From positions 1 through 46,970 of the forward strand of contig CANQWO010000014.1 in NCBI GenBank assembly GCA_947627565.1: a stretch of 46,970 nt of DNA. Direction: 5' to 3'. Under the pieces are notes generated by a model, which saw only the letters and a program-made list of their open reading frames with translations, was not told where the DNA came from and did not search any database. Position 1 is the stretch's first letter, and each line of letters opens with the position of its first letter. Made by a program: the position numbers and the translations under genes. This document shows, in pieces, positions 164-41,138 of this stretch. Origin of the DNA: an uncultured Clostridia bacterium (GTDB taxonomy: Bacteria; Bacillota; Clostridia; Christensenellales; Borkfalkiaceae).

Positions 164-2740
164 ATGGAACAATATCGGAAAAGCGCGCGGGAAGTGCTCG
201 CGGAGGTCGGCCGCGGAGAGCGCGGTCTGACGCGGGAAGAGGCGGAGGCGCGGCTTACGCGACGCGGCCGGAACGTGCTCGAAACGGGCAAAAAAAAGAG
301 CAAGATCGGGCTCTTTTTTTCGCAATTCAAAGATCTCATGACCGTCATCCTCATCGCCGCGGCGGCGCTTTCGGGCGTTTTGGCGTTTTTGACACGCGAC
401 ACGGCCGAGCTCGTGGATACGGGCATCCTGCTTTTCATCATCCTGCTCAACGCGGTCGTCGGATTTTTACAGGAATACCGCGCCGATTCCGCGCTCGAAA
501 AGCTCAAAAAACTTGCGCGCTGTGAGGCCAAGGTCGTCCGCGACGGCAAGATCGTCAAGATCGACGCCGAGGAGCTCGTTCCGGGGGACATCGTCGAGAT
601 CGAGGAGGGCGACCGCATCCCGGCCGATTGCAGGATCCTGTCTTCGGAGGACCTCCGCTGCGATGAATCGGCGCTCACGGGGGAATCGTTGCCCGTAAAA
701 AAATTCGATTGCATCGTCTCCAAGAATGCGCTCGCCGAGCGGCGGAACACGGTGTTTTCCTCCACATATTGTGTGCGCGGCAACGCACGCTGCGTCGTCG
801 TGGCGACGGGCATGGAGACGGAGATGGGGCGCATCGCGGCGCTCCTCAAGGGCGGCGAGGAGATCAAGTCGCCCCTCGACAGGATCATCACGCGGCTGGG
901 CAAGATCATTACGGTCAGCGTGCTCGTCATCGCCGCGATCCTGTTCGTCGGCGGACTGCTCTCGGGACGCGTCGGATTTTTACAGAACTTGATGTCGGCC
1001 GTCGCCGTCGCCGTTGCCGCCATTCCCGAGGGCATGGGTGCGGTCGTCACCGTCATTCTCGCGATGGGCGTGCAACGCATGGCGGGGCGGCGCGCCGTGA
1101 TGCGCAAGCTCTCCGCCGTCGAGGCGCTCGGCAGTTGCAGCGTCATCTGCACGGATAAGACGGGGACGCTGACCGAGAACAGGATGCACGTCGAAGAGGT
1201 GGGCACCGAGGCGCAGGAGGAATTGCTCCGCTGCATCCGCGCCTGCCACACCGTCAAGGGGACCGCGGGCAGTTACATCGGCGACTCCACGGAGATCGCG
1301 CTTTTGGAATATGCGGACAGCGCCTCATACCAATTTGCCCCCACCCATGTCGGGGGTACCCCCTTCACGTCGGAGCGAAAGATGATGAGTGTGCTCGTCA
1401 CATTCGACGGCATGACGCGCCTCTACGCCAAGGGCGGCGCCGATATTCTCCTCAAAAAATGCACCAAGATCTTAAAGCGCGACGGCCTGCATCCGCTCGG
1501 GGAGGCCGACAGGCGCGCCATCGAGGCCGCGTGTCTCGGCTATTCCGCGCGGGCGATGCGCGTTCTGGCCTTTGCTTACGGGGAGAGGGCGGAGGAGGAC
1601 CTCGTCTTTCTGGGGCTCGCCGCCATGCTCGATCCGCCCAAGAAGGGCGCCGCCGAAGCCGTGCGCGCGTGCCGGGAAGCGGGCGTCAAGACGGTCATGA
1701 TCACGGGCGATTCCGCCGAGACGGCCTTTGCCATCGCGGAGCGGCTGGGCATCGCCGCGGACCGTTCGGAGGTCGTCACGGGGGAGGAAATCGACGACAT
1801 GGGGTCAGAAAATTTCGCGAACAGCGTCTCGCGCTATGCCGTCTATGCCCGCGTTTCGCCCAAACACAAGTCGGAGATCGTCGAAGCGCTGCGGGCCCGC
1901 GGGGAGGTCGTCGCCATGACGGGAGACGGCATCAACGACGCGCCCGCGCTGCGCGCCGCCGATATCGGGGTGGCGATGGGCTCGGGGACGGACGTCACAA
2001 AAAACGCCGCCGATATTATCATTTCCGACGACGATTTCTCCACCATTGTCGGTGCGGTGGAGGAGGGGCGCAACGTCTTTTTCAACGTCAAAAAGACGAT
2101 CTCGTTCTTCCTTGCCACCAACCTTGCGGAGGTCTTGTGCGTGCTCATCGTCTCGCTGTTCCTCTGGCGATACGATTTTCTGACGTCGACGCAACTGCTC
2201 TGGATCAACCTCATCACCGATTCCCTGCCCGTTCTGGCGCTCGGGGTCGAGCGGACGGAGGGGGCCATGCGCCGCCCGCCGACGCGCGACAGCGAGATCT
2301 ATTCCGCGGAGGCGCTCTTCGAGATCGCGCTGTTCGGCGTCCTGCAGACGGCCATTCTCGTCACGACGTTTGTCTTCGCGGTGCGCGCATGGGGGAACGG
2401 TGTTGCAAGCACCATGGCGTTTGCGATGCTCTCCTTCCTCGAGCTCTTTTATGCGTTTGTCATCAAATCGGACGATACCATGTCCGAGATCAAGAGCTTA
2501 TTTTCCAATCGCGCGTTGCTCGTTACGGTCGCCTTCGGCATCCTCATGACGGTGCTCCTGATCGCGACGCCCGTGCGCGTGCTGTTCGATCTGACGGCAC
2601 TCGCGTGGAATCAATGGGCCGTCGTGTTCGGCCTCTCGCTCGTCGTCATTCCGCTCGGGATGCTCTATCGCACGGTGCGGCGGGGGTCGGTGCGGCGCGT
2701 GCGCGCAAAGCGTCCCGCGCCGGCGCTCAAAATGTCTTAA
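164..2740 (+). CDS. Calcium-type cation-translocating P-type ATPase
   Basis: The 858-residue protein has the full type II P-type ATPase layout: an N-terminal cation-ATPase domain, an actuator loop with TGES near residue 172, the phosphorylation motif DKTGTLT with aspartate 331, a nucleotide-binding domain with KGGAD, then DPPK, the hinge TGDGINDAP near 588, and a six-helix C-terminal membrane block. Likely calcium ligands are retained: IPEG in TM4, NLAEV in TM5 and NLITDS in TM6. It probably exports calcium, or possibly manganese, across the membrane using ATP. One oddity is TM4, which reads PEGMGAVV where the family usually has PEGLPAVV. A second is a stretch around residues 394-400 that coincides with a copy of the GACATGGGTGGGG motif at 1339-1351. 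No strong ribosome binding site is visible. The 3-prime end overlaps the convergent deacetylase gene by 14 bp. Confidence 0.93.
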
Positions 2741-3407
2741 AAATGTAATGATTTTCGCGGAAATAGGCGATAATCGCCGGGAGGGCCTCTGCCGTCGCGG
2801 TGTGCGGTGCGGAGTCGTGCAGAAGCAGCACGACTCTTTGCCTGTTTCCGGCGGTCGTTGCGGACGTCTCGAGCAGCGTCTGTGCGCTCGCGTGGGGGAT
2901 CTCCTCATCGCCACATACGGCGTTCCACCACACGATCTTGTAGCCCATGTCTTTCAAGACGGCCTCCTTGGATGGATGACGGCCGCCCCCGGGGAAGCGG
3001 TAAACGCGCGGCGTTGCGCCCGTCACCTTTCGGATGGCGGCGGCGCACGATTCCACATCCTTGCGAAATGCGGCGTCGCTGGCATAGATCTCCTCGTAGC
3101 GGTGCGTCATGGAGTGCACACCTAAGACATGCCCCTCCTCGGCGATGCGGCGGAGCGTCGTTTCGCGGCCGCTTATGCGTTCGCCGACGATGAAAAAGGT
3201 TGCGTGGACATGCTCTTTTTGAAGGGTGTCGAGGATGCGTCCCGTGACCACGGTGCTCGGCCCGTCGTCAAAAGTTAAGTATACTTCTTTTTCCTCCTCC
3301 GCAAACGTGAAAACGGGCGTCGCCATATTGCGCCCCGCGAGATGGGCCGCCAAAATGAGCATGACGGTGAGACAAAAGATTACGATCGGAAGCCAACGTT
3401 TTTGCAT
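2727..3407 (-). CDS. Membrane-anchored polysaccharide deacetylase (NodB domain)
   Basis: This 226-residue protein starts with an uncleaved signal anchor (roughly residues 5-20) and carries one NodB homology domain on the outer face. The metal and catalytic motifs are all visible: TFDDGPS (the DD pair), HSMTH (the two metal histidines), RFPGGG, and LLLHDS near the end. The family removes acetyl groups from cell-wall or spore-wall polymers such as peptidoglycan or chitin oligomers. Spore-formers carry several of these (PdaB/YlxY type), but which substrate applies here is unknown. I chose the ATG at 3407; an in-frame TTG at 3434 would add nine residues. Neither has a convincing Shine-Dalgarno site. 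The 3-prime end overlaps the convergent ATPase by 14 bp. Confidence 0.88.
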   Translation of the reverse strand: MQKRWLPIVIFCLTVMLILAAHLAGRNMATPVFTFAEEEKEVYLTFDDGPSTVVTGRILDTLQKEHVHATFFIVGERISGRETTLRRIAEEGHVLGVHSMTHRYEEIYASDAAFRKDVESCAAAIRKVTGATPRVYRFPGGGRHPSKEAVLKDMGYKIVWWNAVCGDEEIPHASAQTLLETSATTAGNRQRVVLLLHDSAPHTATAEALPAIIAYFRENHYIFKTF

Positions 3408-3439
3408 GGAGGGAGTTTGTGTAAATCTGCGCAAAAATA

Positions 3440-3468
3440 TTTACTTTTGTCGATCGTTGTGTTATAAT
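3440..3468 (+). promoter_or_regulatory. Sigma-70-type promoter of galM
   Basis: TTTACT (3440-3445) and a perfect TATAAT (3463-3468) are separated by 17 bp. The start codon of galM lies 24 bp downstream, with AAGGGAGG as ribosome binding site. Confidence 0.75.
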
Positions 3469-3491
3469 GGAAAAAACAAGGGAGGCAAAGT

Positions 3492-4523
3492 ATGATCACA
3501 ACCAGAGTTTTCGGCAGGACCAAGGAGGGAAAACGGGTCCTCGCCTTTACCATTGCCGACGGGCGCAGGAGCGTGACCGTCCTGAATCTCGGCGGGATCG
3601 TCCAGCGGCTCGTCGTTCCCGCGAAGGACGGCCGCCTCACCGACGTCGTGCTCGGCTATCGCACCGTCGCGGAATACGAGGCGAACGGCGGCTATCTCGG
3701 GGCGCTCATCGGCCGCTTCGGCAACCGCATCGGCGAGGGAAAACTCTCGGTTGACGGACGGCAATATCAGCTCTTCCAAAACGACCGCGGCAACCATCTC
3801 CACGGCGGGAAGGCGGGATTCAACAAGAAGATCTGGGCGCACGGCATCGCGGGCAATACGCTGGCCCTCTCCATCATCTCCCCCGACGGCGAGGAAAATT
3901 ATCCCGGAACGCTCAAAGTGACCGTCGTCTATACGTTCGTGAACGGCGTTCTGCGCATCCATTACCGCGCCGTCTCCGACAAGAAGACGGTCGTCAATCT
4001 GACCAATCATGCCTATTTCAATCTCGGCGGCGAGGGGAGCGGCACGGTGCTCGATCAGACGCTTGCGATCGACGCCGACGCGATCACCCCGACGAACGAT
4101 ACGATGATCCCCGAGGGCGCGTTCCGCTGCGTTGACGGCACGCCGTTCGACTTCCGCACCGCCAAGCCGATCGGCCGCGACATCGGCGTTGACGACGAGG
4201 ATCTTCGGAAGGGGAACGGGTATGACCACTGCTTCGTCTTAAACGGCGCGGGCTTCAAACAGTATGCGACGGCCTATTGCGAGAAGACGGGCATTCAGAT
4301 GAATTGCTACACCGACATGCCCGCCGTCCAGCTCTATACGGGCAACGGCCTCAACCAGCAGGGCAAATACGCGAAATACACCGCGCGCACCGGCTTCTGC
4401 CTCGAGACGCAGGCCATTCCGAACAACGTCAATGTCCCCGCCTATGCGGAGAAGGGGAGTTCCTATCTCGACGCGGGCGAAACATACGATTACTGCGCGG
4501 AATACGAATTTCTCGTCAAATAA
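3492..4523 (+). CDS. galM: Aldose 1-epimerase (galactose mutarotase)
   Basis: The 343-residue protein matches the GalM family over its whole length. Visible signatures are GRFGNRI and NHLHGG near residues 76-103, NLTNHAYFNLGG carrying the catalytic acid histidine near 174, and FCLETQAIPNN near the C-terminus carrying the catalytic base glutamate. It interconverts the alpha and beta anomers of galactose and related sugars, so that galactokinase receives alpha-galactose. It is transcribed alone, from the promoter at 3440-3468, and ends at a hairpin at 4544-4575. It is about 28 kb from galT-galK in this window, so the Leloir genes are split into at least two units. Confidence 0.95.
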   Translation: MITTRVFGRTKEGKRVLAFTIADGRRSVTVLNLGGIVQRLVVPAKDGRLTDVVLGYRTVAEYEANGGYLGALIGRFGNRIGEGKLSVDGRQYQLFQNDRGNHLHGGKAGFNKKIWAHGIAGNTLALSIISPDGEENYPGTLKVTVVYTFVNGVLRIHYRAVSDKKTVVNLTNHAYFNLGGEGSGTVLDQTLAIDADAITPTNDTMIPEGAFRCVDGTPFDFRTAKPIGRDIGVDDEDLRKGNGYDHCFVLNGAGFKQYATAYCEKTGIQMNCYTDMPAVQLYTGNGLNQQGKYAKYTARTGFCLETQAIPNNVNVPAYAEKGSSYLDAGETYDYCAEYEFLVK

Positions 4524-4597: not shown

Positions 4598-6337
4598 ATG
4601 AAAACATTCCGCTTTGTCGCTCGATTCATGCTGATCGCGGCCGCGCTGCTTGCGGCGGTTTTGGGGATCGCCGCATGCGGCTCGGATCCCTATGAGTTTG
4701 CGGAGGGCGAGCGGGAGACGGCGGAGCACTATGAATATACGTTTCAGCCGTATGTTCTGAAACGCGGGCCGCTGACCGTCGGCACGGAGCAGGATCTCTA
4801 TACCGCCGAGGGCGCGCGCGTGGCGCTTTTCAAGACCATAGAGGCGGACATGGGTGCCCTGAAAGCCGTCTTCCCGCGGGGGAAGTCCATCCGGCTTTTC
4901 GTCCTCTCCGACGCCCGCGCGTCGGCACTGCCGCTTGGCATTTATGCGGACGGCACGGTGTATGTGAAGGAGAGCGCCGTGGAGAGCGGGGAATACCGGC
5001 TGTTCCTCTCGGCCGCCTATCTCGGGACGGGCGAGCCGTGGAAGGCCTATGCGGCGCGGGCGGCCGCGTTCGGCGAGACGTCGGAGATCTCCGAGAGCGC
5101 GCTCGCGAGCTACTATGCGGGGCAACCGGAGGCCGCGTCCCTTTTCGCCGCCTACTTTTTCGAGGGATTTGCCGACGAGGAGACGCGCGCCTATGCCGTT
5201 GCGGGCGCGGAGGCGTTCGGCGCGTTTTTGCGGGAGCAACGCGGCGCCGCGGCCATCGGATATACCCGTCTTGACGCCGACAGGGCGGAATTTCTCGCGT
5301 CACTCGGCGTTACGGCGGCCTATCCGGGCGGAGATCATACCTTTTTGGACGGGGCCTCGTATACGACGGACGATGAATTTTCGCTCGTCGTGGAGACGAA
5401 GGACAGGCGGTGGTTTCTCGACCCCATCCCCGCAAAAACCGAGTTCGGCGCAGAATACGCGATGGATACGCCGGCGCGCGTTCTGGCGCGGCTGACGGAG
5501 GCCGACGCCGACCTCAAGGCCTTGATGGAGACGGTCGCAAAGCAGGCCCCCGTGGAATATAAGCGCATCAAGGCCCGTTTTGCCCGGCACATCGACTATG
5601 CGCTCTCCCCCGACGAGCCGCAGACCTATGTGGGGTCGCAGACGGTGCGCCTCAATGACCTCGGCGAGATCGTTTCGGCCACGGCGCGCCTGCTCATTTC
5701 CGACCCGGAGGGCACGACATGGTTGGAGACGGGCGTCGCGGAGTATTTCGCCCGCTTCCTCGTCCGCCGTGCGAGCGAGACGACCCGCCGCGCCTATCTC
5801 TGTTTTTCGGGCGACGGGAGCGGGCTGACGGGCGACGAGCTTGCCTTCGTGCAGGAGGTCAAGGCGCGCTATCTCGCGGCCGGGGGATCGCTGGATGACT
5901 TCATATCCTATGACCATGCCCGCATCCTCGAGGCGATCGCGTATGTCACCCTGCGCACGCCCGCCTATAAGGAGACGGTCGATCTTCCCATTGCGACGGC
6001 TTCGCTTGGCGGCGGGGAGTCCTCCGGAGAGGGCGCCGCGCTCACTTTGCCGGAGACCTATCTGTTCGCGAAGTATCTCATCGCGCGGTTCGGCATGGAC
6101 GACGTCTTAGAGGCGGTGCGCACGGAGCTCTCCGTACTCGGCGACTATTATACGCTGCAAGCCGCGTTCCTGCGGGAGATCGAGGCGGGGCGGACGTCGT
6201 GGACGCTCAAACTCCCCGCGGAAGACAAGAGCGCGTTCTATAACGACATGACGTTCATCATTTTTGTCGTGATCTCCGTCGCCGCGGCCGTCGCCGTCGT
6301 GCTGTTGTTGACGCCCAAGAAAAAGAAGAAAAAGTGA
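4598..6337 (+). CDS. Putative lipoprotein with a C-terminal membrane anchor
   Basis: I do not recognise a named family for this 579-residue protein. The ATG at 4598 follows a good AGAAGGAGAA ribosome binding site and opens a lipoprotein signal peptide, with the lipobox GIAAC placing the lipidated cysteine at residue 27. The body is soluble and mostly extracellular. Near the C-terminus there is a second hydrophobic stretch (about 17 residues of I, V and A) followed by a poly-lysine tail, so the protein appears tethered at both ends. Around residue 373-385 the sequence TWLETGVAEYFARF resembles the helix after the active site in gluzincin metallopeptidases (usual form WLxEGxAEY), but no HExxH motif precedes it; the equivalent place reads GEIVSATARL. 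It could therefore be a catalytically dead peptidase relative. It is isolated between terminators at 4544-4575 and 6391-6425. Confidence 0.75.
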   Translation: MKTFRFVARFMLIAAALLAAVLGIAACGSDPYEFAEGERETAEHYEYTFQPYVLKRGPLTVGTEQDLYTAEGARVALFKTIEADMGALKAVFPRGKSIRLFVLSDARASALPLGIYADGTVYVKESAVESGEYRLFLSAAYLGTGEPWKAYAARAAAFGETSEISESALASYYAGQPEAASLFAAYFFEGFADEETRAYAVAGAEAFGAFLREQRGAAAIGYTRLDADRAEFLASLGVTAAYPGGDHTFLDGASYTTDDEFSLVVETKDRRWFLDPIPAKTEFGAEYAMDTPARVLARLTEADADLKALMETVAKQAPVEYKRIKARFARHIDYALSPDEPQTYVGSQTVRLNDLGEIVSATARLLISDPEGTTWLETGVAEYFARFLVRRASETTRRAYLCFSGDGSGLTGDELAFVQEVKARYLAAGGSLDDFISYDHARILEAIAYVTLRTPAYKETVDLPIATASLGGGESSGEGAALTLPETYLFAKYLIARFGMDDVLEAVRTELSVLGDYYTLQAAFLREIEAGRTSWTLKLPAEDKSAFYNDMTFIIFVVISVAAAVAVVLLLTPKKKKKK

Positions 6338-11975: not shown

Positions 11976-13013
11976 ATGCAAAAAAGTTATTCGGAAAGTT
12001 ATAAAGAGGCGGGCGTCGACATCACTGCGGGGTACCGCGCCGTCGAGCTCATGAAAAAGCACATCGCGCGGACCATGCCCGCGGGCAAGGCCGACATCGG
12101 CGGCTTCGGCGGGCTCTTTCCGCTCGCGCTTGCGGGGATGAAGGAGCCCGTGCTCGTCTCGGGAACGGACGGCGTGGGCACCAAACTCCGCGTCGCGCAG
12201 CTCCTGAACAGGAACGACACCGTCGGCATCGACTGCGTCGCCATGTGCGTCAACGACGTCCTCTGCTGCGGCGCGCGGCCGCTCTTTTTCCTCGACTACA
12301 TCGCCTGCGGGAAGAATGTCCCCGAGAAGATCGCGGAGATCGTCGGCGGCGTCGCGGAGGGGTGCGTACAGGCCGGTTGTCAGCTCATCGGCGGCGAGAC
12401 GGCCGAACATCCCGGTACCATGTCCGAGGATGACTACGATATAGCGGGATTTACCGTCGGGATCGTGGACCGCGAGAAGATCATCGACAATCAAACGATG
12501 CGGGCGGGGGATCTCATGCTCGCGCTTCCCTCGACGGGCGTGCATTCCAACGGATTTTCGCTCGTCCGCAAGGTGTTCGATGTCGAGCACACCGATTTGG
12601 AGGCACCCATGTCCGAGCTCGGGGGCGCGCCTATGGGCGAAACGCTCTTGACGCCCACCCGCATCTATGTGAAGCCCATGCTCGAGCTCTTCAACAGCGT
12701 GGAGGTCTCGGGCGTTTCGCACATCACGGGCGGCGGGTTCTACGAAAATATTCCGCGTTCACTGCCCAAGGGATTGGGCGTCCGCATCGCGCGGCGCGAC
12801 GTCCGCGTGCTGCCCATCTTCGACCTCATTCGCGAACGGGGCGGCATTTCCGAGCACGACATGTTCAATACGTTCAATATGGGCGTCGGCATGACGGCCG
12901 TCGTGAGGGCGGACGACGCACCCGGTGCGCTCGCGATTTTGAAGCAAAACGGGCTCGACGCCTATATCCTCGGCGAGATCGTTGCGGGAGAGGGCGTGGA
13001 GATTAAGGGGTAG
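11976..13013 (+). CDS. purM: AIR synthetase (FGAM cyclo-ligase)
   Basis: The 345-residue protein closes the imidazole ring of FGAM to give AIR, using ATP. Typical PurM blocks are present: GVDITAGYRAVELMK at the N-terminus, SGTDGVGTKLRVA, GGETAEHPG, STGVHSNGFSLVRKV and HITGGGFYENIPR. The length is that of the Bacillus enzyme. I start it at the ATG at 11976, preceded by GGCGGAG; an upstream GTG at 11952 is less likely. A TACCATGTCCG motif copy lies at 12416-12426 in a variable loop and encodes GTMSE, and another ACCCATGTCCG copy at 12605-12615. The 3-prime side opens directly into a 750-base repeat region. Confidence 0.97.
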   Translation: MQKSYSESYKEAGVDITAGYRAVELMKKHIARTMPAGKADIGGFGGLFPLALAGMKEPVLVSGTDGVGTKLRVAQLLNRNDTVGIDCVAMCVNDVLCCGARPLFFLDYIACGKNVPEKIAEIVGGVAEGCVQAGCQLIGGETAEHPGTMSEDDYDIAGFTVGIVDREKIIDNQTMRAGDLMLALPSTGVHSNGFSLVRKVFDVEHTDLEAPMSELGGAPMGETLLTPTRIYVKPMLELFNSVEVSGVSHITGGGFYENIPRSLPKGLGVRIARRDVRVLPIFDLIRERGGISEHDMFNTFNMGVGMTAVVRADDAPGALAILKQNGLDAYILGEIVAGEGVEIKG

Positions 13014-13106: not shown

Positions 13107-13480
13107 GGATTTAAGAAAGTGCATCTCAGAGCGATTCGCCCACACCCATGTCTGCCATCAAAGACAACAAGCGCGAAGCGCAAATTGAGGGAAAAAACAA
13201 AAAGCGTGGTTTTTGTTTTTTCAGCGGATTTTTCACGAAATTCTTTTTATAGAAGCTCCCTGCGGGAGGCATATTGTGGGCAAAGAATTTCCGTGAGGAT
13301 TTAAGAAAGTGCATCTCAGAGCGATTCGCCCACACCCATGTCTGCCTTCAAAGACAAGAAGCGCGAAGCGCAAATTGAGGGAAAAAACAAAAAGCGTGGT
13401 TTTTGTTTTTTCAGCGGATTTTTCACGAAATACTTTATATAGAAGCTCCCTGCGGGAAGCATATCATGGGCAAAGAATTT
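13101..13480 (+). repeat. Tandem duplication of a 190 bp composite unit
   Basis: 13101-13290 and 13291-13480 are nearly identical (a handful of substitutions, such as CCATCAAAG versus CCTTCAAAG). Each unit holds about 125 bases ending in a perfect A/T stem (AAAAAACAAAAA and TTTTTGTTTTTT around GCGTGG, for example 13192-13221), then a 65 bp palindromic element (13232-13296 and 13422-13486). Each unit also has one ACCCATGTCTGCC motif. The array lies between purM and purN in the transcribed direction. The A/T stems look like weak intrinsic terminators, so the array may lower expression of the downstream pur genes. No transposase or long ORF is present. Confidence 0.93.
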
Positions 13481-13486: not shown

Positions 13487-13720
13487 GTGGAGCGCCGCAA
13501 TTCTCGCTCAGCAGCCCGGTGGGCTGTGAGCGGCGGCGCGACATGAGCGGTGGCCTCCGCGAAGGGGCCGCAGGCGGTCCCTGCCGCCAAGGCGCGACCT
13601 GCTTACAGACAACAAGCGCGAAGCGCAAATTGAGGGAAAAAACAAAAAGCGTGGTTATTGTTTTTTCAGGGAAATAGGAAATCTTTGACCTCATTTCCCA
13701 TACCCATGTCTGCGATCAAG
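13487..13720 (+). repeat. Partial third repeat unit with the GC-rich block shared with bases 1-66
   Basis: 13487-13553 is the inverted counterpart of bases 1-66. 13554-13600 is unique here. 13604-13671 repeats the second half of the 190 bp unit (ACAACAAGCGCGAAGCGC through the A/T stem). 13700-13715 repeats the ACCCATGTCTGC end. The block looks like a unit interrupted by other sequence. Confidence 0.8.
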
Positions 13721-15127: not shown

Positions 15128-16312
15128 ATGAACGAATTTTCGCTGAAATACGGCTGCAATCCCAACCAAAAACCCGCCCGCATCTACATGGAAAACGGCG
15201 GCGATCTGCCCGTCGAAATTCTGAACGGGCGCCCCGGGTATATCAATTTTCTCGACGCGCTCAATTCGTGGCAATTGGTCAAAGAGATCAAGGAGAACAC
15301 GGGCATGGTGGCCGCGTCGAGCTTCAAACATGTCTCGCCGACCTCGGCGGCCGTCGGAAAAAAACTTCCGCGCGCGCTAAAAAAGTCGTGCTTTGTCGAC
15401 GACGTGGAGGGCCTCGACGACAGCCCGCTCGCCTGTGCCTATGCGCGCGCCCGCGGCACCGACCGCATGTCTTCGTTCGGCGATTTCATCGCGCTCTCCG
15501 ATGTCTGCGATGAGGTGACGGCAAAGATCATCGCCCGCGAGGTCTCCGACGGCATCATCGCGCCCGGGTATTCCCCGAGGGCGCTCGAGATCCTGAAGGG
15601 CAAGCGGAAGGGCGCCTATAATATCGTAAAAATTGACAAAGATTATGTGCCCGCGGAGATCGAGCGCAAGCAGGTCTTCGGGGTGACGTTCGAGCAGGGC
15701 CGCAACAATTTCAAGATCGACCGCGCCCTTCTTTCCAACATCGTCACCAAGAACCGCGCGCTTCCCGAGGACAAGGCAACGGACCTCGTCATCGCGCTCA
15801 TCACGCTCAAATATACGCAGAGCAATTCCGTCTGTTTCGCCGCGGATGGGCAGGCCATCGGCGTGGGGGCGGGGCAGCAGTCCCGCATCCACTGTACCCG
15901 CCTCGCCGCGCAAAAGGCCGATCTGTGGCACCTGCGCATGCACGAAAAAGTGCTCTCGTTGCAGTTTGCCGAGGGCGTGGGGCGGCCCGAAAAGAACAAC
16001 ATCATCGACCTCTATCTCTCCGACGAGGCCGAAGAAGTCTTGGGTGACGGCGTTTGGCGGCAATACTTTGCCGTGCGGCCAGCGCCGTTTTCGCGCGAAG
16101 AGAAGGCGGCGTATTTGAAGACGGTCTCCGGCGTTTCGCTTGCGAGCGACGCGTTTTTCCCGTTTGCGGACAACATCGAACGGGCGGCGCGGAGCGGCGT
16201 AAGCTATGTGGCCGAGCCGGGCGGCTCCGTGCGCGACGACCTCGTGATCGAGGCGGCCGACGCGCATGATATGGTGATGGCCTTCACGGGCATGCGGCTG
16301 TTCCATCATTAA
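15128..16312 (+). CDS. purH: AICAR formyltransferase (stand-alone PurH C-terminal domain)
   Basis: The 394-residue product covers only the AICAR transformylase half of PurH, which formylates AICAR with 10-formyltetrahydrofolate. The catalytic lysine-histidine pair is visible as K67-H68 in SSFKHVSPTSAAVG, and the C-terminal half has GVGAGQQSRIHCTRLA. The N-terminal IMP cyclohydrolase domain found in the usual 500-plus-residue PurH is missing; the upstream purO-like gene provides that step. The pairing of the two genes, seven bases apart, argues that they act in sequence. The ribosome binding site is weak (GTGAGGATGGT). Calling it purH is for orientation; the gene is a one-domain variant. Confidence 0.92.
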   Translation: MNEFSLKYGCNPNQKPARIYMENGGDLPVEILNGRPGYINFLDALNSWQLVKEIKENTGMVAASSFKHVSPTSAAVGKKLPRALKKSCFVDDVEGLDDSPLACAYARARGTDRMSSFGDFIALSDVCDEVTAKIIAREVSDGIIAPGYSPRALEILKGKRKGAYNIVKIDKDYVPAEIERKQVFGVTFEQGRNNFKIDRALLSNIVTKNRALPEDKATDLVIALITLKYTQSNSVCFAADGQAIGVGAGQQSRIHCTRLAAQKADLWHLRMHEKVLSLQFAEGVGRPEKNNIIDLYLSDEAEEVLGDGVWRQYFAVRPAPFSREEKAAYLKTVSGVSLASDAFFPFADNIERAARSGVSYVAEPGGSVRDDLVIEAADAHDMVMAFTGMRLFHH

Positions 16313-16345: not shown

Positions 16346-17611
16346 ATGAATCTTTTAGTCATCGGTGGGGGCGGCCGCGAGCACGCCATCATCAAAGCCT
16401 TAAAAAAGAGCCCGAAGTGCGAAACGATCTGGTGCCTTCCCGGCAACGGCGGCATCGCGCGCGACGCGGAGTGCTATCCCGTCAAGGCGACCGACCTCGA
16501 CGGGATCGTGCAGTTCGCGAAATCTCATCCCGTGGATTTTGCCGTCGTCACGCCGGACGATCCCCTCGTCCTCGGCTGCGTGGACCTGCTCGAAGCGTGC
16601 GGCATCCCCTGTTTCGGGCCCGACAAACGGGCCGCGATCATCGAGGGGAGCAAGGTTTTTTCCAAAGAACTCATGATGAAATACGGCATTCCCACGGCCG
16701 CCGCGAGACAATTCGACGACCCCATGTCCGCGATCGAGTACTTAAAAACGTGTGACTATCCCACCGTCGTCAAGGCGGACGGCCTCGCCCTCGGCAAGGG
16801 AGCCGTCGTCGCAAACAGCTTCGAAGAGGCGGAGAAAGCGGTCCGCGAAATGATGGTCGAGCGCGTCTTCGGCGCAAGCGGCGCGCGCGTCCTCATCGAG
16901 GAATTTTTGACGGGACCCGAGGTCTCCGTGCTCACCTTTACCGATGGGAAGACGATCGTCCCCATGGTCTCCTCCATGGACCACAAGCGCGCTTTGGACG
17001 GGGACGAGGGCCCGAATACGGGCGGAATGGGGACGGTCGCGCCCAATCCGTATTATACGGAGCGCGTCGCGGCGCAATGTATGCGGGAAATTTTTCTGCC
17101 GACGGTCGCGGCGATGCGGCAGGAGGGGCGCACGTTCAAGGGCTGCCTCTACTTCGGCCTCATGCTCACGGAGCGCGGCCCCAAGGTCATCGAATACAAC
17201 TGTCGTTTCGGCGATCCCGAGACGCAAGTCGTGCTGCCGCTCCTCGAGAGCGATCTCCTCGAAATCATGCTTGCGGTGCATAGCGGAAGCCTGACCGCGG
17301 ACATGGTACGCTTCTCTTCTGCCTCGGCCTGCTGCGTCGTCTTGGCGTCGCGGGGGTATCCCAAGCGGTATGAGACGGGGTTCGAGATCGCGCTTCCCGA
17401 AGAGCCGCAGGGCGAAATCTACATTGCGGGGGCGAGAAAAGAGGGGGACGCGCTCTACACTGCGGGCGGCCGCGTGCTCGGCGCCGTCGCCACGGCGCCC
17501 ACGTTGCGGCAGGCGATCGACGGGGCCTATGCGCTCGCCGAAAGCATCCGCTTCGAAAACGCTTATCTGCGGCACGACATCGGCGCGCGGGCCCTCGGCG
17601 CAACCAAGTGA
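16346..17611 (+). CDS. purD: GAR synthetase (phosphoribosylamine-glycine ligase)
   Basis: The 421-residue ATP-grasp enzyme joins glycine to phosphoribosylamine, the second step of the pathway. The N-terminal GGGGREHAI loop, the ATP-grasp stretch KADGLALGKGAVV, GGMGTVAPNPYY, and the metal-binding ENCRFGDPETQ-like segment (here EYNCRFGDPETQ) are all present. Length is normal. The ribosome binding site is GGGAGAA. The gene lies 33 bases after the AICAR formyltransferase gene and 30 bases before purL. A CGGACATGGTA motif copy lies at 17298-17308 and encodes ADMV in a surface region. Confidence 0.97.
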   Translation: MNLLVIGGGGREHAIIKALKKSPKCETIWCLPGNGGIARDAECYPVKATDLDGIVQFAKSHPVDFAVVTPDDPLVLGCVDLLEACGIPCFGPDKRAAIIEGSKVFSKELMMKYGIPTAAARQFDDPMSAIEYLKTCDYPTVVKADGLALGKGAVVANSFEEAEKAVREMMVERVFGASGARVLIEEFLTGPEVSVLTFTDGKTIVPMVSSMDHKRALDGDEGPNTGGMGTVAPNPYYTERVAAQCMREIFLPTVAAMRQEGRTFKGCLYFGLMLTERGPKVIEYNCRFGDPETQVVLPLLESDLLEIMLAVHSGSLTADMVRFSSASACCVVLASRGYPKRYETGFEIALPEEPQGEIYIAGARKEGDALYTAGGRVLGAVATAPTLRQAIDGAYALAESIRFENAYLRHDIGARALGATK

Positions 17612-24258: not shown

Positions 24259-24276
24259 CTTTCCGCAAACTTTGCG

Positions 24277-24989: not shown

Positions 24990-25483
24990 GCGAACTCGTC
25001 GTCGGCACCGTTTTGAAGCCGCAGGGCATCCGCGGCGAGATCAAGATCAAGCCCTTTACCGATTCCGCGGAGGTCTTCGAGCACTTCAAACGTATCTTTT
25101 TGGACGGAACGGAATATAAAATTTTGTCGGTCAGGGCGGCCGACGGCTTCGTCTTTGCGGGGCTTCGGGGCGTTCCCGACCGCAACGCCGCCGAACTGCT
25201 TCGCGGCATGCGCGTCACCGTCCCCCGCGAAGAGGCGCCCGAACTTCCCGTCGGCAGCTACTATATCGCCGACATTTTGGGGAGCGCCGTCGTCACCGAA
25301 AAGGGGGAGACGCTCGGGACGCTGAAAGACGTCACAAATGCCGCTACCGACATCTATACCTTGGACATGGGTGGGCGCGATGTGCTCTTCCCCGTCGCCA
25401 AGGGCGTCGTTTTGCAGGTGGATCCGGAGCGGAAGATCATCACGGTAGACGGCAAACGTTTCTACGAAGTCGCCGTACTTTGA
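24986..25483 (+). CDS. rimM: 16S rRNA processing protein RimM
   Basis: The 165-residue protein has the two RimM domains: an N-terminal barrel opening with VGTVLKPQGIRGEIKI and a C-terminal PRC barrel with YYIADILGSAVVTEKGETLG and FPVAKGVVLQVD. It helps mature the 3-prime domain of the 30S subunit. It overlaps tmk by four bases with a CGGAGGG site inside the tmk end. In most Firmicutes trmD follows directly; here an ABC transporter and a small membrane gene lie between them. A GACATGGGTGGG motif copy at 25364-25375 encodes DMGG. Confidence 0.95.
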   Translation: MSELVVGTVLKPQGIRGEIKIKPFTDSAEVFEHFKRIFLDGTEYKILSVRAADGFVFAGLRGVPDRNAAELLRGMRVTVPREEAPELPVGSYYIADILGSAVVTEKGETLGTLKDVTNAATDIYTLDMGGRDVLFPVAKGVVLQVDPERKIITVDGKRFYEVAVL

Positions 25484-29360: not shown

Positions 29361-29981
29361 ATGGATATTCCGACTTACGAAAGAGAATACTTCGACCGTG
29401 GATTTACGGCCGTCGCAGGCGTCGACGAAGTGGGCAGGGGCCCTTTGGCGGGGCCCGTCGTCTGCGCCGCCGTCATTTTGCCGATCGACGAGGCCCGCCG
29501 CGTCGCCGGGGTGGACGATTCCAAAAAGCTCTCGGCGAAGAAGCGGGCAAAGCTCGCCGAGGAGATCAAGGAGATCGCCCGCGCCTATGCTATCGCGGAG
29601 GTGGACGAGGCGACGATCGACCGGATCAACATCTTGCAGGCGACCCGTCTCGGCATGCGCCGCGCCATCTGCGCGTTGGGGGTGACCGCGGACATGGTCC
29701 TCATCGACGGCAACATGAAGCTGGATATTTCCGTGCCGCAGCGGAGCATCGTGAAGGGGGACGCCCTCGTCTATTCCATCGGTGCGGCGAGCATCCTCGC
29801 CAAGGAATACCGCGACGCGCTCATGCGCAAGTATGCGGAGGAATATCCCGAATACGCGTTTGAAAAAAATGTCGGATACGGCACGGCGGAGCACATCGCC
29901 GCCATCAAGGAGTATGGCATATGCAAAATTCACCGGAGGACCTTCGTAAAAAACTTTTGGGACGGAAGGGAGAGGAGCTGA
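29361..29981 (+). CDS. rnhB: Ribonuclease HII
   Basis: The 206-residue enzyme cuts RNA in RNA-DNA hybrids and removes single ribonucleotides. Catalytic acidic residues are visible in GVDEVGRGPLAGPV (residues 19-32) and VDDSKKLSAKKR, with a further aspartate in LIDGN and in GDALVYSIGAASILAKE. Gene order with rbgA is the standard Firmicutes one. The start lies two bases after the rbgA stop codon, so translation is likely coupled. A CGGACATGGTC motif variant sits at 29689-29699. The 3-prime end overlaps yraN. Confidence 0.96.
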   Translation: MDIPTYEREYFDRGFTAVAGVDEVGRGPLAGPVVCAAVILPIDEARRVAGVDDSKKLSAKKRAKLAEEIKEIARAYAIAEVDEATIDRINILQATRLGMRRAICALGVTADMVLIDGNMKLDISVPQRSIVKGDALVYSIGAASILAKEYRDALMRKYAEEYPEYAFEKNVGYGTAEHIAAIKEYGICKIHRRTFVKNFWDGRERS

Positions 29982-34103: not shown

Positions 34104-35207
34104 CTATTCCCGCTCGATGCGGATGAGGGGTTCATAATCCCCGAGGCGCTTCACGGCGCATTCGAGCGCAAGGCGGAGTTCCTCGTCCGATCGCTTGCAG
34201 GCGTAGGGAACGCCCACGTCAAATTCCACCCGGTTTGTGCCGGGAATGAGGCGGAAATCGTGCAATTCTAACCCGTCGGCGATCGCGTGCGCCGCTTCCG
34301 AGACCAGAATTTTCAGAGTGGATTCCTCGCGGTTGGTGAGGTCCACGGGGTCGAGATGGATGGTGAGGAGCACGCCCGTCTCCTGTTTGACCCGTATCTC
34401 CATGCCGTCGATCACCGTGTGCGCGTCGAGCATGGTAAGCCTTGCGTCCATTTCGGCGTGGATGGTCGCGAAGGAGACGCCCTTGCCGTAGTTATAAATT
34501 TGCAGATCGTGCACGCCGAGGATGGAGGGCGAGGCGAGGAGCGTCGCCTTGATCTGTTCCGCGAGCGCGGGGTCGGGCGCCTGCCCCAATAATTTGGAGG
34601 CCGCCTCCTTCAGAATGCGGAAGCCCTGCCATGCGATGAACAGGGAGACTGCGACGCCCGCCCAACCGTCTGCGGCGGGGAGGTGCGGCGAGAGCGCGGC
34701 GCCCGCGATGACCGCGGCGGTCGCGAGGCTGTCGCAAAAGCTGTCCGTCGCCGCCGCCCGCAGCGTATCCGAGTCGAGTTTTTTGGCCGCGATCCGATAG
34801 CACGCGAACATGCCGAGTTTGACGGCAATGGAGATTCCGAGAACGAGGAACACGGACATGGTACCCACGGACGCGGTGTCACCGAGGATACTGACGACGG
34901 AGGCGCGGACGAGTTCGAGCGCCAGAAACAGGATGAAGATGCCCGTGATGAGCGCCGCAACGGATTCCGCGCGGCGATGGCCGAACGGGTGGCGGCGGTC
35001 GGCCGGCTTGGCGGCGATGGAGAGGGAGACGAGCGCAACGACGCCGCTGCCGCAGTCGCTGAGATTGTTGAACCCGTCGGCAGTCACCGAGACGAACCCG
35101 GTGAGGAGCCCGGCGGCGATCTTGCCCGCGGACAGGAGCAGGTTGCAGAGGATCCCGGCAATGCAGACGGCGGCCCCGCCGCGTGTTGTGCGATCGAGCG
35201 GTTTCAT
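34104..35207 (-). CDS. Cation diffusion facilitator (zinc/iron/manganese exporter)
   Basis: The 367-residue protein has about six membrane helices and a cytoplasmic C-terminal dimerisation domain from about residue 200. Metal-site residues are seen in helix 2 (TADGFNNLSDCGSG) and helix 5 (TDSFCDSLATAAV), the pattern of proton-driven divalent cation exporters. A histidine-rich loop is not present. Residues 290-367 carry a second, less conserved domain, longer than the minimal family. The ATG at 35207 has no ribosome binding site; a perfect promoter ends six bases upstream, so it is probably leaderless. Which metal it exports is unknown. Confidence 0.92.
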   Translation of the reverse strand: MKPLDRTTRGGAAVCIAGILCNLLLSAGKIAAGLLTGFVSVTADGFNNLSDCGSGVVALVSLSIAAKPADRRHPFGHRRAESVAALITGIFILFLALELVRASVVSILGDTASVGTMSVFLVLGISIAVKLGMFACYRIAAKKLDSDTLRAAATDSFCDSLATAAVIAGAALSPHLPAADGWAGVAVSLFIAWQGFRILKEAASKLLGQAPDPALAEQIKATLLASPSILGVHDLQIYNYGKGVSFATIHAEMDARLTMLDAHTVIDGMEIRVKQETGVLLTIHLDPVDLTNREESTLKILVSEAAHAIADGLELHDFRLIPGTNRVEFDVGVPYACKRSDEELRLALECAVKRLGDYEPLIRIERE

Positions 35208-35320: not shown

Positions 35321-35328
35321 AAGAAGAA

Positions 35329-35583
35329 ATGAGGTTGGGAGAGGAAATTTTCAAAGCGCTCGGCGGGGAGGACCCGCAGCGCATTTCCTATACCGTCACC
35401 GACGGCGGGGAGGGATATTTCCGCAACGTGAAGCGCATCCTCGCCTTTTCGGACGCGTGCGTCGCGCTGAAGGGGAAGCGGGGCGGCGTGCGGGTGGAGG
35501 GGACTTCGCTCTCGCTCGGGCACTACTGTGCGGGCGATCTCGTCGTCCGCGGCTGTATCTTGCAGGTACAGCACACCGATTAG
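35329..35583 (+). CDS. yqfC: Sporulation protein YqfC (YabP/YqfC family)
   Basis: The 84-residue protein fits the small YqfC family by size, by its alternating hydrophobic pattern (RILAFSDACVALKG, then VRVEGTSLSLGHYCAGDLVVRG) and by its place immediately before yqfD. Family members are needed for spore formation in Bacillus but have no known biochemical role. The start at 35329 has only a weak AAGAAG ahead of it. The divergent gene is a cation exporter. Similarity is modest in the first 30 residues. Confidence 0.8.
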   Translation: MRLGEEIFKALGGEDPQRISYTVTDGGEGYFRNVKRILAFSDACVALKGKRGGVRVEGTSLSLGHYCAGDLVVRGCILQVQHTD

Positions 35584-35592
35584 GAGGGGACC

Positions 35593-36462
35593 ATGCCCGG
35601 GAGCATCGCATTTACCGTTCGGAGTCTGAGCGCGCACCGCGCCGTCGAAAAACTGGCGCGGGCGGGCGTTGCCGTGCGCGCGTGCCGCCCCCTGCAAAAA
35701 AATGCGGTGGACCTCAAGATCCGCGCCAAAGATGCGAAAAAATCTTTTGCAATTTTACGCGGTTCATGTTATAATATAGAAAATATTCGTTACTGCGGTT
35801 CCGCACGGCTTCTGCGCGAGGCCGTCCGCGCCGCGGGACTGCTCCTCGGCGCGCTCTTCTTTCTCTTCGCCGTCCGGTTTGCGGAGGGACGGGTCCTCGC
35901 CGTGGAATTTACGGGGAGCGGCGCATACTATCAAAGAGAGATCGAAGCCATGCTGCGGGAAGAAGGGGTCGGCCCGTTTTCCCCCATGCCCGCGGATACC
36001 GCGCGGCTGACGGCCCGCGTGCTCTCGCTTCCACGCGTCGAATTTTGCGCGTTCAAAAAGCGGGGCGGCGTGCTCACCGTTGAGGTGCAGTGTACGGACG
36101 GCGTCGAGCCGATCGCGGGCATGCCCCTCACGTCGAACGTCTCCGGGGTCGTCGAAACGCTGGTAGTGATCCGCGGGACGCCGCTCGTCGAGGAGGGCGC
36201 GGCCGTGGAGAAAGGGGATCTTCTCGTCGGCGATTATCTTCTCGTCGGGGAGGAAAAACTGCCCGCGCTCGTCATCGCCAAGGCGGTCATCCGCCGCGAT
36301 ATTTCCGTGGAATACGAGCTCGGAGAGGCGCAGGCGATCGCGCAGGCGCTGCTCGATTTCGGGGAGCTCGCAGAGTTACATACCGGCAAAACAGAGAAAG
36401 GTTGGCGCGTGGAGGGCGTCGCGCGGACGACGGTCTCCCTCAACCTCGGGGAGGAGAATTGA
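35593..36462 (+). CDS. yqfD: Sporulation protein YqfD, short form
   Basis: The 289-residue protein has a cytoplasmic N-terminal region, one membrane helix near residue 80-96 (VRAAGLLLGALFFLFAVRF), and an outer C-terminal part with ...GVEPIAGMPLTSNVSGVVETLVVIRGT, matching the YqfD family. YqfD in Bacillus is about 400 residues, so roughly 100 are missing, mostly from the C-terminal half. The ribosome binding site is TTAGGAGGGG. It overlaps phoH by four bases. A role in sporulation is inferred from family and neighbours. Confidence 0.85.
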   Translation: MPGSIAFTVRSLSAHRAVEKLARAGVAVRACRPLQKNAVDLKIRAKDAKKSFAILRGSCYNIENIRYCGSARLLREAVRAAGLLLGALFFLFAVRFAEGRVLAVEFTGSGAYYQREIEAMLREEGVGPFSPMPADTARLTARVLSLPRVEFCAFKKRGGVLTVEVQCTDGVEPIAGMPLTSNVSGVVETLVVIRGTPLVEEGAAVEKGDLLVGDYLLVGEEKLPALVIAKAVIRRDISVEYELGEAQAIAQALLDFGELAELHTGKTEKGWRVEGVARTTVSLNLGEEN

Positions 36463-39407: not shown

Positions 39408-40291
39408 AGAGCGGTACGGTCGCCGTCATCGGCAAGGCCAATGCGGGCAAGAGCACGCTGATCAACGTCCTCGTCGGCGAAAAGGTCGCCATCGTCTCCC
39501 CCAAACCGCAGACGACGCGCGACCGCATCCTCGGCATTCTCACGCGGGACGATCATCAGATCGTCTTCGTCGATACGCCCGGCATCTACCGCCAGAGGAA
39601 TGCCCTCACCGCGCGCATGATGAAGACGACGGAGACGACCGCGAAGGACGTCGACGCCATTCTCTTCGTCCACGACGGCCATGCGGGACTCTCGGAGGAC
39701 GACCTCGCGCTCATTCTGCGCTACGAAGCCCTCGGGCTTCCGCTGCTCATCGCGTATACCAAGATCGACATCATGCCCAAGGAGAAGATCCCCGGCGACA
39801 TCAAAGCGCTGTTCGACGCGGGTGTGACGGCGGACGTCTACCCCGTGTCCGCGAGGAAGGGCGTCAATCTCAAAAAATTGGAACAAGCGATCGCGGAACT
39901 TCTTCCGGAGGGCGGCCCGCTCTACCCGGAGGACATCATCTCCGACCGCAGCGAAAAATTCATGATCGCGGAGCTCATGCGCGAGAAAATTCTGCTCAAA
40001 TACGAGAAGGAGATTCCGCACGGCGTGGCGGTGGTCGTCAACAAATTCGAGCGGCATGAAAACGGCGCCTATGAGATCGACCTCGATATCGTCTGCGAAA
40101 AGAAAAATCACAAGGCCATCCTCATCGGCAAGCAGGGCAGGGCGCTCAAGGAGACGGCCTCCTTCGCCCGCGCCGACATGGAGAAATTTTTGGGCGCGAA
40201 GGTCTTCCTCACCGTCTATGTCAAGGTGCGCGAGGACTGGCGCGACAAGGCCACGCTCATGAAGGAATTTGGCTACGGCGAAGAGGACTGA
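39404..40291 (+). CDS. era: GTPase Era
   Basis: The 295-residue GTPase binds the 3-prime end of 16S rRNA during 30S maturation. G motifs are G1 GKANAGKSTL, G2 within PKPQTTRDRI, G3 DTPGI, and G4 in YTKIDIM. A KH domain follows from about residue 200, with the GKQGRALKE loop in its centre. The start at 39404 uses GGGAGGG. In Bacillus the genes dgkA and cdd lie between ybeY and era; both are missing here. Confidence 0.96.
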   Translation: MKSGTVAVIGKANAGKSTLINVLVGEKVAIVSPKPQTTRDRILGILTRDDHQIVFVDTPGIYRQRNALTARMMKTTETTAKDVDAILFVHDGHAGLSEDDLALILRYEALGLPLLIAYTKIDIMPKEKIPGDIKALFDAGVTADVYPVSARKGVNLKKLEQAIAELLPEGGPLYPEDIISDRSEKFMIAELMREKILLKYEKEIPHGVAVVVNKFERHENGAYEIDLDIVCEKKNHKAILIGKQGRALKETASFARADMEKFLGAKVFLTVYVKVREDWRDKATLMKEFGYGEED

Positions 40292-40326
40292 GTATAAACC
40301 GCCCCGCCTCTCGGCATACTGTTTGC

Positions 40327-40428
40327 ATGAAAGAGGAAAAGGGGAAGAGCGCCAAGGAGATTGCGTGGAAACTCTTTGAGGAGACGGGCAATTTCAGCTA
40401 CTATATGTTATACAAACGGTTGAAGTGA
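40327..40428 (+). CDS. yqzL: YqzL-like small protein
   Basis: A 33-residue frame between era and recO reads MKEEKGKSAKEIAWKLFEET, then GNFSYYMLYKRLK. The WKLFEETGN...YMLYK pattern and the position match the tiny YqzL protein, which lies between era and recO in Bacillus. Its role is unknown. Its TGA overlaps the recO ATG by one base, so the genes are coupled. No clear ribosome binding site is visible. It is easy to miss because of its size. Confidence 0.8.
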   Translation: MKEEKGKSAKEIAWKLFEETGNFSYYMLYKRLK

Positions 40429-41138
40429 TGGAGTTCAAGGCGGACGCCCTGCTGCTTCGGGCGGCGGATTACGGCGAAAACGACAAAATGGTGACCCTGC
40501 TCACCGCTGCGCGCGGCAAGATCGGCGCGGCGATGAAGGGGGTGAGAAAGGCGGGCGCGAAGTTGAATTTCGCGTCGCAGCCTTTTTGTTTTGCCGAATA
40601 CGTCCTCGCCGAGCGCGACGGCCGCTACACCGTGACGCAGGCCTCGCTCCACGACGGGTTTTACGGGCTCCGCACCGATCTGACCAAGTATTACGCCGCC
40701 GCTTCGGTGCTCGCCGCCGCCGATCGGTTCTCCGCGGAAAACATGCCGTGCGGGGAATTGCTCGTCGCCGCGGTGGAGGCGTTGGAGGCGATCGAGACGG
40801 AAGACGGGCATACCATGTCCGCGTTGATCGCGTTCCTTTTGCGCGCCGTCGCCTTGGCTGGCTATCCCGTTTCGGCGGGGGACTGTCCCGTCTGCGGGAA
40901 AAAAATTGTCGGAAGATGTCGGTTCGACATGACGAGCGGGGCGTTCACCTGCGACGCGTGCGCGGTCGGGGCGCCTGCGAGCGAATCGACCTATCGTTTG
41001 CTTCGCGCCTTTGCGGCGGGTGCGGCGCCCGAGGAGGGCGACGGAGCGCTGCGGGCTCTTCGTCTTCTCAACGCCTACATCGCCTATCAGACCGATCTGC
41101 CGCTCGCACCCTTGGGCGATCTCATCGCGATCTTATAA
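40428..41138 (+). CDS. recO: DNA repair protein RecO
   Basis: The 236-residue protein loads RecA with RecF and RecR. It has an N-terminal OB fold (MEFKADALLLRAADYGENDKMV), a helical middle part, and a zinc site in which CPVCGKK and CDAC supply the four cysteines. The ATG at 40428 is part of TGATG with yqzL. A TACCATGTCCG motif lies at 40811-40821 and encodes HTMSA. It closes the yqfC to recO cluster; the usual glyQ/glyS genes do not follow. Confidence 0.94.
   Translation: MEFKADALLLRAADYGENDKMVTLLTAARGKIGAAMKGVRKAGAKLNFASQPFCFAEYVLAERDGRYTVTQASLHDGFYGLRTDLTKYYAAASVLAAADRFSAENMPCGELLVAAVEALEAIETEDGHTMSALIAFLLRAVALAGYPVSAGDCPVCGKKIVGRCRFDMTSGAFTCDACAVGAPASESTYRLLRAFAAGAAPEEGDGALRALRLLNAYIAYQTDLPLAPLGDLIAIL

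Follow-up and report, generated by a model that had tools for sequence, protein, structure and literature searches.

Few genome-wide marks that are fixed in place are known, namely Chi, KOPS, the sites of Noc and SlmA, the DNA uptake sequences (DUS) and uptake signal sequences (USS), and HIP1. Chi and KOPS are short and strand-biased. The sites of Noc are about 70 palindromes that are missing from the terminus region, and those of SlmA have a similar layout (PMC4331003). The uptake signals described in the sources cited here come from Pasteurellaceae and Neisseriaceae. As a rule they number 1,000 or more, and in the extended USS of H. influenzae the core is followed by spaced A/T blocks (PMC1852404). 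The USS of this species appear to be scattered through the genome at random, genome-maintenance genes being favored (PMC2346458), and dialects of uptake signals as well as their pilin receptors have been described (PMC12616744). HIP1 is palindromic and linked to methyltransferases (PMC4390886). Here we examine the word GACATGG in a 46,970-nucleotide stretch of an uncultured Clostridia bacterium (contig CANQWO010000014.1, positions 1 to 46,970), the whole of which is called the window. Our analysis revealed that GACATGG belongs, as the core, to an asymmetric motif of ~30 bp, which is as good as certainly a dispersed, DNA-level mark, and which is nearly missing from a large domain of core genes.

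The window holds 29 copies of GACATGG on both strands, while 100 dinucleotide shuffles gave a mean of 4.4 and a maximum of 9. A sequence-only reading of this DNA had listed 28 copies as far above expectation. The excess stands, but the list does not, as a copy at 1796 was missed and 40185 should read 40175. The same reading had found the 11-mer CGGACATGGTA seven times, which was confirmed with all positions (shuffle mean 0.02), and GACATGGGTG ten times with at least four copies reaching GGGG, for which a tally gave 10; the GGGG form, GACATGGGTGGGG, occurs 4 times in the window and 10 times in the genome. It had also placed the last copy near 40821, and indeed no GACATGG lies in the window beyond 40819. 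The genome (G000) comprises 1.80 Mb in 63 contigs and is 99.6 percent complete. It contains CGGACATGGTA 127 times (66 on the plus and 61 on the minus strand) against 0 in a reversed control, and the seven copies in the window are no clear excess over its share of this total (Poisson p 0.05). Further counts were made in a 447-kb sample, consisting of the window and 20 slices, and in an 838-kb sample of 41 slices covering 46 percent of the genome. In the former, GACATGG-family words were the top over-represented 8- to 12-mers under a fourth-order Markov model. GACATGG was found 176 times in this sample, compared with 75.6 after codon shuffling and 94.8 after synonymous shuffling, and CGGACATGGTA 31 times, compared with 0.2 and 1.0.

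The full motif was described by aligning copies and by a weight matrix of about 20 bits seeded with 44 intergenic copies. It can be written approximately as ATCGCGGACATGG-n8-WTTT-n2-GTCW, i.e., ATCGCGGACATGG followed by about eight variable, G/C-leaning bases, WTTT, two free bases and GTCW. If the count starts at the G of GACATG, positions -6 to +6 make up the strong block, 15-18 the T-rich block and 21-23 the GTC. The GTC is thus two helical turns away from the GAC, and a single protein might contact both from the same face of the DNA. Variant cores, GGCATG and GACATGC, are present, and the matrix is asymmetric, the motif not being palindromic. With the threshold of 16 bits used for the main counts, the 447-kb sample contains 200 sites versus 22 in codon shuffles (five shuffles) and 64 in synonymous shuffles; at the looser threshold of 13 bits the respective numbers are 284, 74.6 and 139.6. 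The 838-kb sample contains 308 sites at 16 bits or more versus 29 in the codon-shuffle null, and 20 slices outside the matrix training gave a summed 108 versus about 14.5. Scaled from the sample, the genome would carry about 600 copies. The expectation and codon-bias checks which the sequence-only reading had proposed were thus carried out with genome counts and codon-aware shuffles. The excess persisted in the 447 kb, and the motif is refuted by neither. A reversed-sequence control for the matrix was dropped in favor of the codon-shuffle null, since it breaks codon phase and thereby overstates the signal, even motif-poor relatives appearing enriched. A 70-wide matrix left to free expectation-maximisation ended up following codon periodicity, as did per-genome refinement in most genomes. 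A hairpin shared by all copies was also rejected, with no consistent pairing and little folding excess in genes.

Conservation at orthologous sites, which the sequence-only reading had named as informative, was found in the motif-bearing relatives. Strong sites (at least 18 bits) were compared in blastn-alignable DNA, a site at the same place being required. Six motif-bearing genomes kept 35 of 64 such sites at 64 to 74 percent identity (G025 8/13, G066 7/8, G087 16/30, G030 3/7, G016 1/2 and G083 0/4), versus 0 of 29 in five others (G012, G001, G017, G036 and G114); G005 offered none to test. The region from the purD-like to the purL-like gene was then compared in eight motif-bearing and ten other relatives. 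GACATGG at 16723, in the purD-like gene, is kept in 7/8 motif-bearing genomes and 0/10 others. At 20258, in the purL-like gene, it is kept in 6/8, with GACACGG in the other two, and again in 0/10 others. At 17300, in the purD-like gene, 7/8 carry GACATGG or GGCATGG, and GACATGG is also found in G095, G001 and G036, so that protein constraint contributes there. Where a relative is without the motif, the gap at these sites measures 0-6 nt. In the adjoining region, compared in 31 genomes, the pattern is the same, with turnover at the recO site at 40814. The constraint at orthologous places acts at the DNA level. As a separate observation, several genomes have a PurL-like protein of 43-61 percent identity (loci L087-L099), a strong divergence that may reflect replacement by transfer.

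The distribution of sites over the 41 slices is far from uniform (chi2 167, df 40). In G000, whose contigs are denoted C1, C4 and so on, the site-poor stretches are C4 (1 site in 80 kb), C5 (3 in 60 kb), C6 (2 in 40 kb), C9 (2 in 40 kb) and C1:5-65k (6 in 60 kb). Together they hold 14 sites in 280 kb, with about 8 in the codon null, versus about 10.5 per 20 kb elsewhere. Along C1 the counts form a gradient over six slices (2, 1, 3, 5, 7 and 9). The second batch of slices was picked partly for poor-looking contigs, of which C13 and C17 came out normal. Core genes are found in the poor slices, among them those for an FtsW/RodA protein, a penicillin-binding protein and DNA polymerase III alpha, mraY, an IspH-S1 fusion, Hsp90, cmk, glgD and nrdD. 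That the poor DNA is accessory was largely rejected, as 87 and 85 percent of the coding length of slices L004 and L009 has homologs of at least 55 percent identity. Slice L006 has DNA polymerase III and nrdD, and L005 and L006 are without homologs at that level in the sampled relatives.

The scarcity extends to other motif-bearing genomes, where orthologs of the poor-domain genes have 5 sites in 88.2 kb versus 78 in 186.5 kb of other genes; the poor genes were sampled in 4/6 genomes for this test, with none in G025 and G066. Contiguity of the domain is mostly shown, most pieces being neighbors and C5 unlinked. In G025 the orthologs of C4, C9 and C6 are consecutive on contig C2:100-212k, and in G083 a single 20-kb slice unites genes of C4:45k and C1:5-45k. 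The density per 20 kb along G025:C2 is about 7 (5-57k), 3.3 (70-82k) and then 1.7, 0, 5.0 and 0 (100-212k). On G025:C1, which begins beside ParB, all seven sampled stretches of the first 437 kb have sites, and ParB is located in site-rich DNA in both G000 and G025. ParB is normally origin-side. Most genes run from rich into poor DNA on G000:C1 (five of six slices) and on G025:C2; if genes follow replication, the domain would be terminus-side. Regarding base composition, GC content at third codon positions (GC3) is 0.71-0.79 in the poor domain of G000 (L004, L005, L006, L009, L001 and neighbors) versus 0.74-0.82 elsewhere. Site density in G000 rises with GC3 (rho 0.68), but so does the codon null (rho 0.58), and the link is absent in G025 and G087. 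It is doubtful that GC3 is the cause of site density.

As far as genes and strands are concerned, the 200 sites of the 447-kb sample comprise 74 oriented with a gene, 84 against a gene and 42 intergenic (95 on the plus and 105 on the minus strand). The intergenic share, 21 percent, compares with 11.2 percent of the sequence. Within genes the reading frame is almost fixed (70/74 and 67/80), the frames reading GAC ATG or CC ATG TCC. Sites are excluded from divergent gaps, where there is 1 in 9.2 kb, compared with 11 in 6.5 kb of convergent and 29 in 28.4 kb of tandem gaps. Eleven of the 29 tandem-gap sites sit 22-37 nt past a stop codon. Intergenic copies fold in a terminator-like manner, with a mean z of -1.14 (42 copies) versus -0.22 for genic copies (158) and -0.01 for random positions (126). 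A pure RNA role is unlikely, since tandem gaps contain both orientations (16 sites with transcription and 13 against). A single inverted pair of cores was found in the 447 kb, at L018 16583-16597 within a strong terminator hairpin, an arrangement known from Neisseria. The G-rich strand, taken as a proxy for the leading strand, carries 88/200 sites, i.e., there is no strand bias. Even spacing was looked for in slices with at least six sites and was not seen (coefficient of variation 1.06 versus 0.87-1.13 for random placement). Finally, site density is higher in genes for which the sampled relatives have a homolog, with 4.8 per 10 kb where the best homolog reaches at least 65 percent and 7.2 at 50-65 percent, versus 3.2 and 2.9 in the lower classes, the last being genes with no homolog there.

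Among related genomes the motif is unevenly distributed. The two-part pattern CNCGGRCATGGN15TC, tallied forward and reverse in 103 genomes of the genus, separates 17 rich (76 to 227), 16 intermediate (20 to 46) and 70 poor genomes (at most 19), the reversed control giving 0 to 3. A stricter form was searched for in 396 genomes sampled across the order, 383 of which lie outside the genus by our tally; among these it occurred once in 6 and was absent from 377. By the matrix, samples of relatives were enriched over codon shuffles in G016 (23 vs 3.4), G025 (37 vs 6.6), G030 (45 vs 14) and G114 (21 vs 6.2) and marginally in G036 (11 vs 2.2). Little or no enrichment was seen in G012 (3 vs 4.0, and 27 vs 23.5 in a further count), G019 (0 vs 1.0), G001 (2 vs 3.2), G017 (7 vs 3.8) and G005 (5 vs 1.2). 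Variants escape the two-part pattern: G087 scores 19, yet it is matrix-rich (96 vs 7.2 in 280 kb), favoring CAGACATGG (28) and CGGGCATGG (27) over CGGACATGG (14). A FastTree analysis of three proteins from 31 genomes grouped nine poor and intermediate species (0.995) with the rich ones outside, G012 being badly placed, but the latter did not emerge as a single clade; the names YbeY and Era used for these proteins rest on gene order and domains. A search for alternative motifs (dialects) in motif-poor species gave nothing clear, only long repeats and composition effects. Slices L036-L040 of G012 contain frequent G-rich repeats of the GGGTAGGGGGGTGGG type and a repeat family containing AATGACGT. 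In addition, a window protein has relatives in nine public contigs of uncultured Clostridia bacterium (isolates Lapin and BRZ_CT), which may or may not belong to the genus; only one of them, L067, looks motif-rich.

The machinery of DNA uptake was sought in the genus genomes with profiles for the ATPase (PF00437, over 90 bits being regarded as clear) and for N_methyl pilins (PF07963). Both were found in the same 4/17 rich genomes (G104, G025, G083 and G123) and also in poor ones, e.g., G012, G036, G035 and G124. These searches revealed no N_methyl pilin and no clear type II secretion or type IV pilus ATPase in the other 13/17, G000 included, with G002 and G066 giving only weak partial PF00437 matches (25-31 bits). 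Nine of the 13 are at least 91 percent complete, while G108, G121, G066 and G116 are 66-88 percent complete, and the absence is therefore weaker there. Pilus genes show no association with motif richness; across the genus the genes for pilins and for the ATPase have a patchy distribution and mostly go together. ComEC is present in 98/103 genomes and in 17/17 rich ones. Concerning ParB, 30 genomes were searched, and one copy was found in 27 of the 29 with a match, rich and poor alike, with a second copy in G123 and a weak second one in G005. Apart from these two, ParB is single in both groups, and no Noc-type paralog explains the motif.

The copies in the window found by a matrix scan at 16 bits or more are given below; gene calls were made with a purpose-written script, on which the intergenic counts depend.

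1025..1055, plus strand: motif copy, 17.9 bits, within a P-type ATPase gene
2460..2490, minus strand: motif copy, 31.4 bits, CGGACATGGTA form
3776..3806, minus strand: motif copy, 17.7 bits
4551..4581, plus strand: motif copy, 23.2 bits, intergenic, in a terminator-like hairpin
4841..4871, plus strand: motif copy, 21.8 bits
8016..8046, minus strand: motif copy, 29.2 bits, intergenic by the gene calls, included in the CGGACATGGTA count
12055..12085, minus strand: motif copy, 19.4 bits, GGCATG form
12400..12430, minus strand: motif copy, 18.0 bits
12589..12619, minus strand: motif copy, 24.2 bits
13128..13158, minus strand: motif copy, 20.7 bits, within a repeat element
13318..13348, minus strand: motif copy, 18.6 bits, within a repeat element
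13686..13716, minus strand: motif copy, 26.3 bits, intergenic
15296..15326, plus strand: motif copy, 18.9 bits
16704..16734, minus strand: motif copy, 26.2 bits, purD-like gene
17294..17324, plus strand: motif copy, 28.2 bits, purD-like gene
19335..19365, minus strand: motif copy, 25.8 bits, purL-like gene, shared with G025 only
20123..20153, plus strand: motif copy, 16.1 bits, purL-like gene, not conserved
20252..20282, plus strand: motif copy, 28.4 bits, purL-like gene
21372..21402, minus strand: motif copy, 26.3 bits, intergenic, GACATGCCCCC form
24237..24267, plus strand: motif copy, 17.7 bits, MutY-like gene
25358..25388, plus strand: motif copy, 22.2 bits
27510..27540, plus strand: motif copy, 18.5 bits
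29129..29159, minus strand: motif copy, 21.0 bits, GTPase gene
29565..29595, plus strand: motif copy, 16.3 bits, RNase HII gene
29685..29715, plus strand: motif copy, 20.0 bits, RNase HII gene
34849..34879, plus strand: motif copy, 23.3 bits, antisense within a cation efflux gene
35573..35603, minus strand: motif copy, 24.1 bits, at a gene start
36112..36142, plus strand: motif copy, 23.0 bits
38988..39018, plus strand: motif copy, 16.6 bits, in the gene between the HD-domain and Era-like genes, kept in most motif-bearing relatives
39825..39855, minus strand: motif copy, 20.8 bits, GACACGG, Era-like gene, kept in the inspected rich relatives, core also in the poor G006
40795..40825, minus strand: motif copy, 32.7 bits, the best of the window, recO, kept in some rich relatives only

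From its place in the gene order we take the gene between the HD-domain and Era-like genes to be that of YbeY. The unrelated genes and the two orientations bear out the dispersed, functional-looking motif of the sequence-only reading, as well as its remark that few copies lie in repeats, these being three (13147, 13337 and 28242) in a single repeat family. This family forms a 190-bp tandem repeat at 13081-13460, with related interspersed copies at 13607-13669, around 28242 and in L007 around 4435; it has an inverted A/T-rich arm and carries the motif at the three positions named and at L007 4435. A second interspersed repeat, around GACATGAGCGGTGGCCTCCGCG, is found at window position 13540, at L007 8804 and 9117 and at L012 13424. 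Two long open reading frames, 41389-45411 (1340 aa) and 4628-6337 (569 aa), have no Pfam match, and the former contains zero sites at 16 bits or more.

Our favored reading, which is tentative and of somewhat less than even confidence, is that the motif is the putative binding site of a sequence-specific chromosome-organising protein acting in the manner of Noc or SlmA. One protein would read the motif, marking most of the chromosome and sparing one large domain; the spared domain would be the late-replicating, terminus-side part, and through the pattern the protein could couple compaction of the nucleoid, segregation or division to how far replication has advanced. A segregation mark was among the options of the sequence-only reading, which agrees with this. 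It is also possible, although on the doubtful side, that we are dealing with a new class of chromosome-domain mark, with many hundreds of long, asymmetric sites, which is so far known from a single genus and is absent as a whole from many sister species. The putative reader would set the marked bulk of the chromosome apart from an unmarked domain, probably on the terminus side. Several observations weigh against chromosome organisation. About 600 copies far exceed the about 70 sites of Noc and the motif is non-palindromic; its placement after stop codons fits an uptake signal as well; and no reader protein was found in a survey of ParB. The terminus position is argued from gene direction on unordered contigs, with C5 unlinked, and the partial choice of poor-looking slices in the second batch bears on the unevenness, which for the exact 11-mer is only weak over C1-C20 (75 sites, p 0.03). 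Furthermore, G025:C2:165-177k lies inside the domain and has 3 sites in 12 kb. In G087, slice L139 is site-free about 85-105 kb from ParB, near the middle of the ParB contig and with sites on either side. The sample contains no G000 ortholog of L139, which either conflicts with one domain or is a second patch.

The likeness to uptake sequences proposed by the sequence-only reading holds for some features and fails for others. A signal of DNA uptake or exchange like USS and DUS, kept by preferential import through a receptor other than a type IV pilus, would account for the abundance, the balanced orientation, the intergenic excess, the terminator-like placement past stop codons, the preferred frames and the higher density in genes with sampled homologs. 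Orthologs without the motif show no motif-size gap and ComEC is present in all rich genomes, while a core with a spaced A/T block loosely recalls the extended H. influenzae USS (PMC1852404). However, 13/17 rich genomes are without pilin and clear ATPase, richness is not linked to pilus genes, sites are nearly missing from a large domain of core genes, and there is only the single inverted pair of cores. The regional absence and the missing pili shift the weight from uptake to chromosome organisation, and we regard uptake as possible but unlikely. A recombination, repair or base-modification mark, Chi-like or HIP1-like, whose enrichment is kept by the enzyme that reads it, appears improbable. 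Dispersed enrichment varying by species is seen for HIP1 as well (PMC4390886), and sites are denser at higher GC3 in G000, but the codon null follows GC3 too and the link fails in G025 and G087. The Chi-like mark suggested by the sequence-only reading is contradicted by the lack of strand bias and by the much greater length of the motif, and its length and asymmetry are unlike HIP1. An origin of the copies as remnants of a short mobile repeat is highly improbable; a few do lie within repeat elements, but the flanks of most are unrelated, and motif-free orthologs lack a motif-size gap, with 0-6 nt at the inspected coding sites, the indel-rich recO site excepted. It is still harder to believe that codon or dipeptide bias made the excess. 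The genic frames favor particular codons and synonymous shuffles retain about half of the looser sites, but codon shuffles erase most of the excess at both thresholds, intergenic copies are enriched, relatives of similar composition are without the motif, and no null tried reproduces the observed counts.

The abundance of an uptake signal is thus combined with the geography of nucleoid occlusion in mostly pilus-free bacteria, a combination that none of the known marks named at the outset fits fully. Literature searches on uptake sequences in Clostridia, Firmicutes or Clostridiales, on chromosome motifs and on the host group brought up no title or abstract that describes the motif, subscription papers and preprints being outside the scope. 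The coexistence of rich genomes (17/103) and motif-free relatives offers a natural experiment, in which the reader protein may be sought by gene-content comparison. Like the sites of Noc in B. subtilis and SlmA in E. coli, the motif is dispersed over most of the chromosome and spares one large domain (PMC4331003). It differs from the about 70 palindromic Noc sites in its hundreds of asymmetric copies, in having no ParB paralog as reader and in a terminus position that is tentative. With the USS of Pasteurellaceae and the DUS of Neisseriaceae it shares hundreds of copies on both strands, terminator placement, preferred frames and clade-specific variants, while its sequence is another one, no type IV pilus genes were found in most rich genomes, and it is regionally absent; its uneven layout contrasts with the random layout reported for the H. 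influenzae USS (PMC2346458). HIP1 of cyanobacteria is likewise very frequent, dispersed, gained and lost between species and unsettled in function, but it is an 8-bp palindrome tied to methyltransferases, whereas the motif is long and asymmetric. Similar to Chi and KOPS, it is an oriented motif scattered through the genome, although these are short and biased and it has no strand bias. The motif shares features with each of the systems compared and matches none of them fully.

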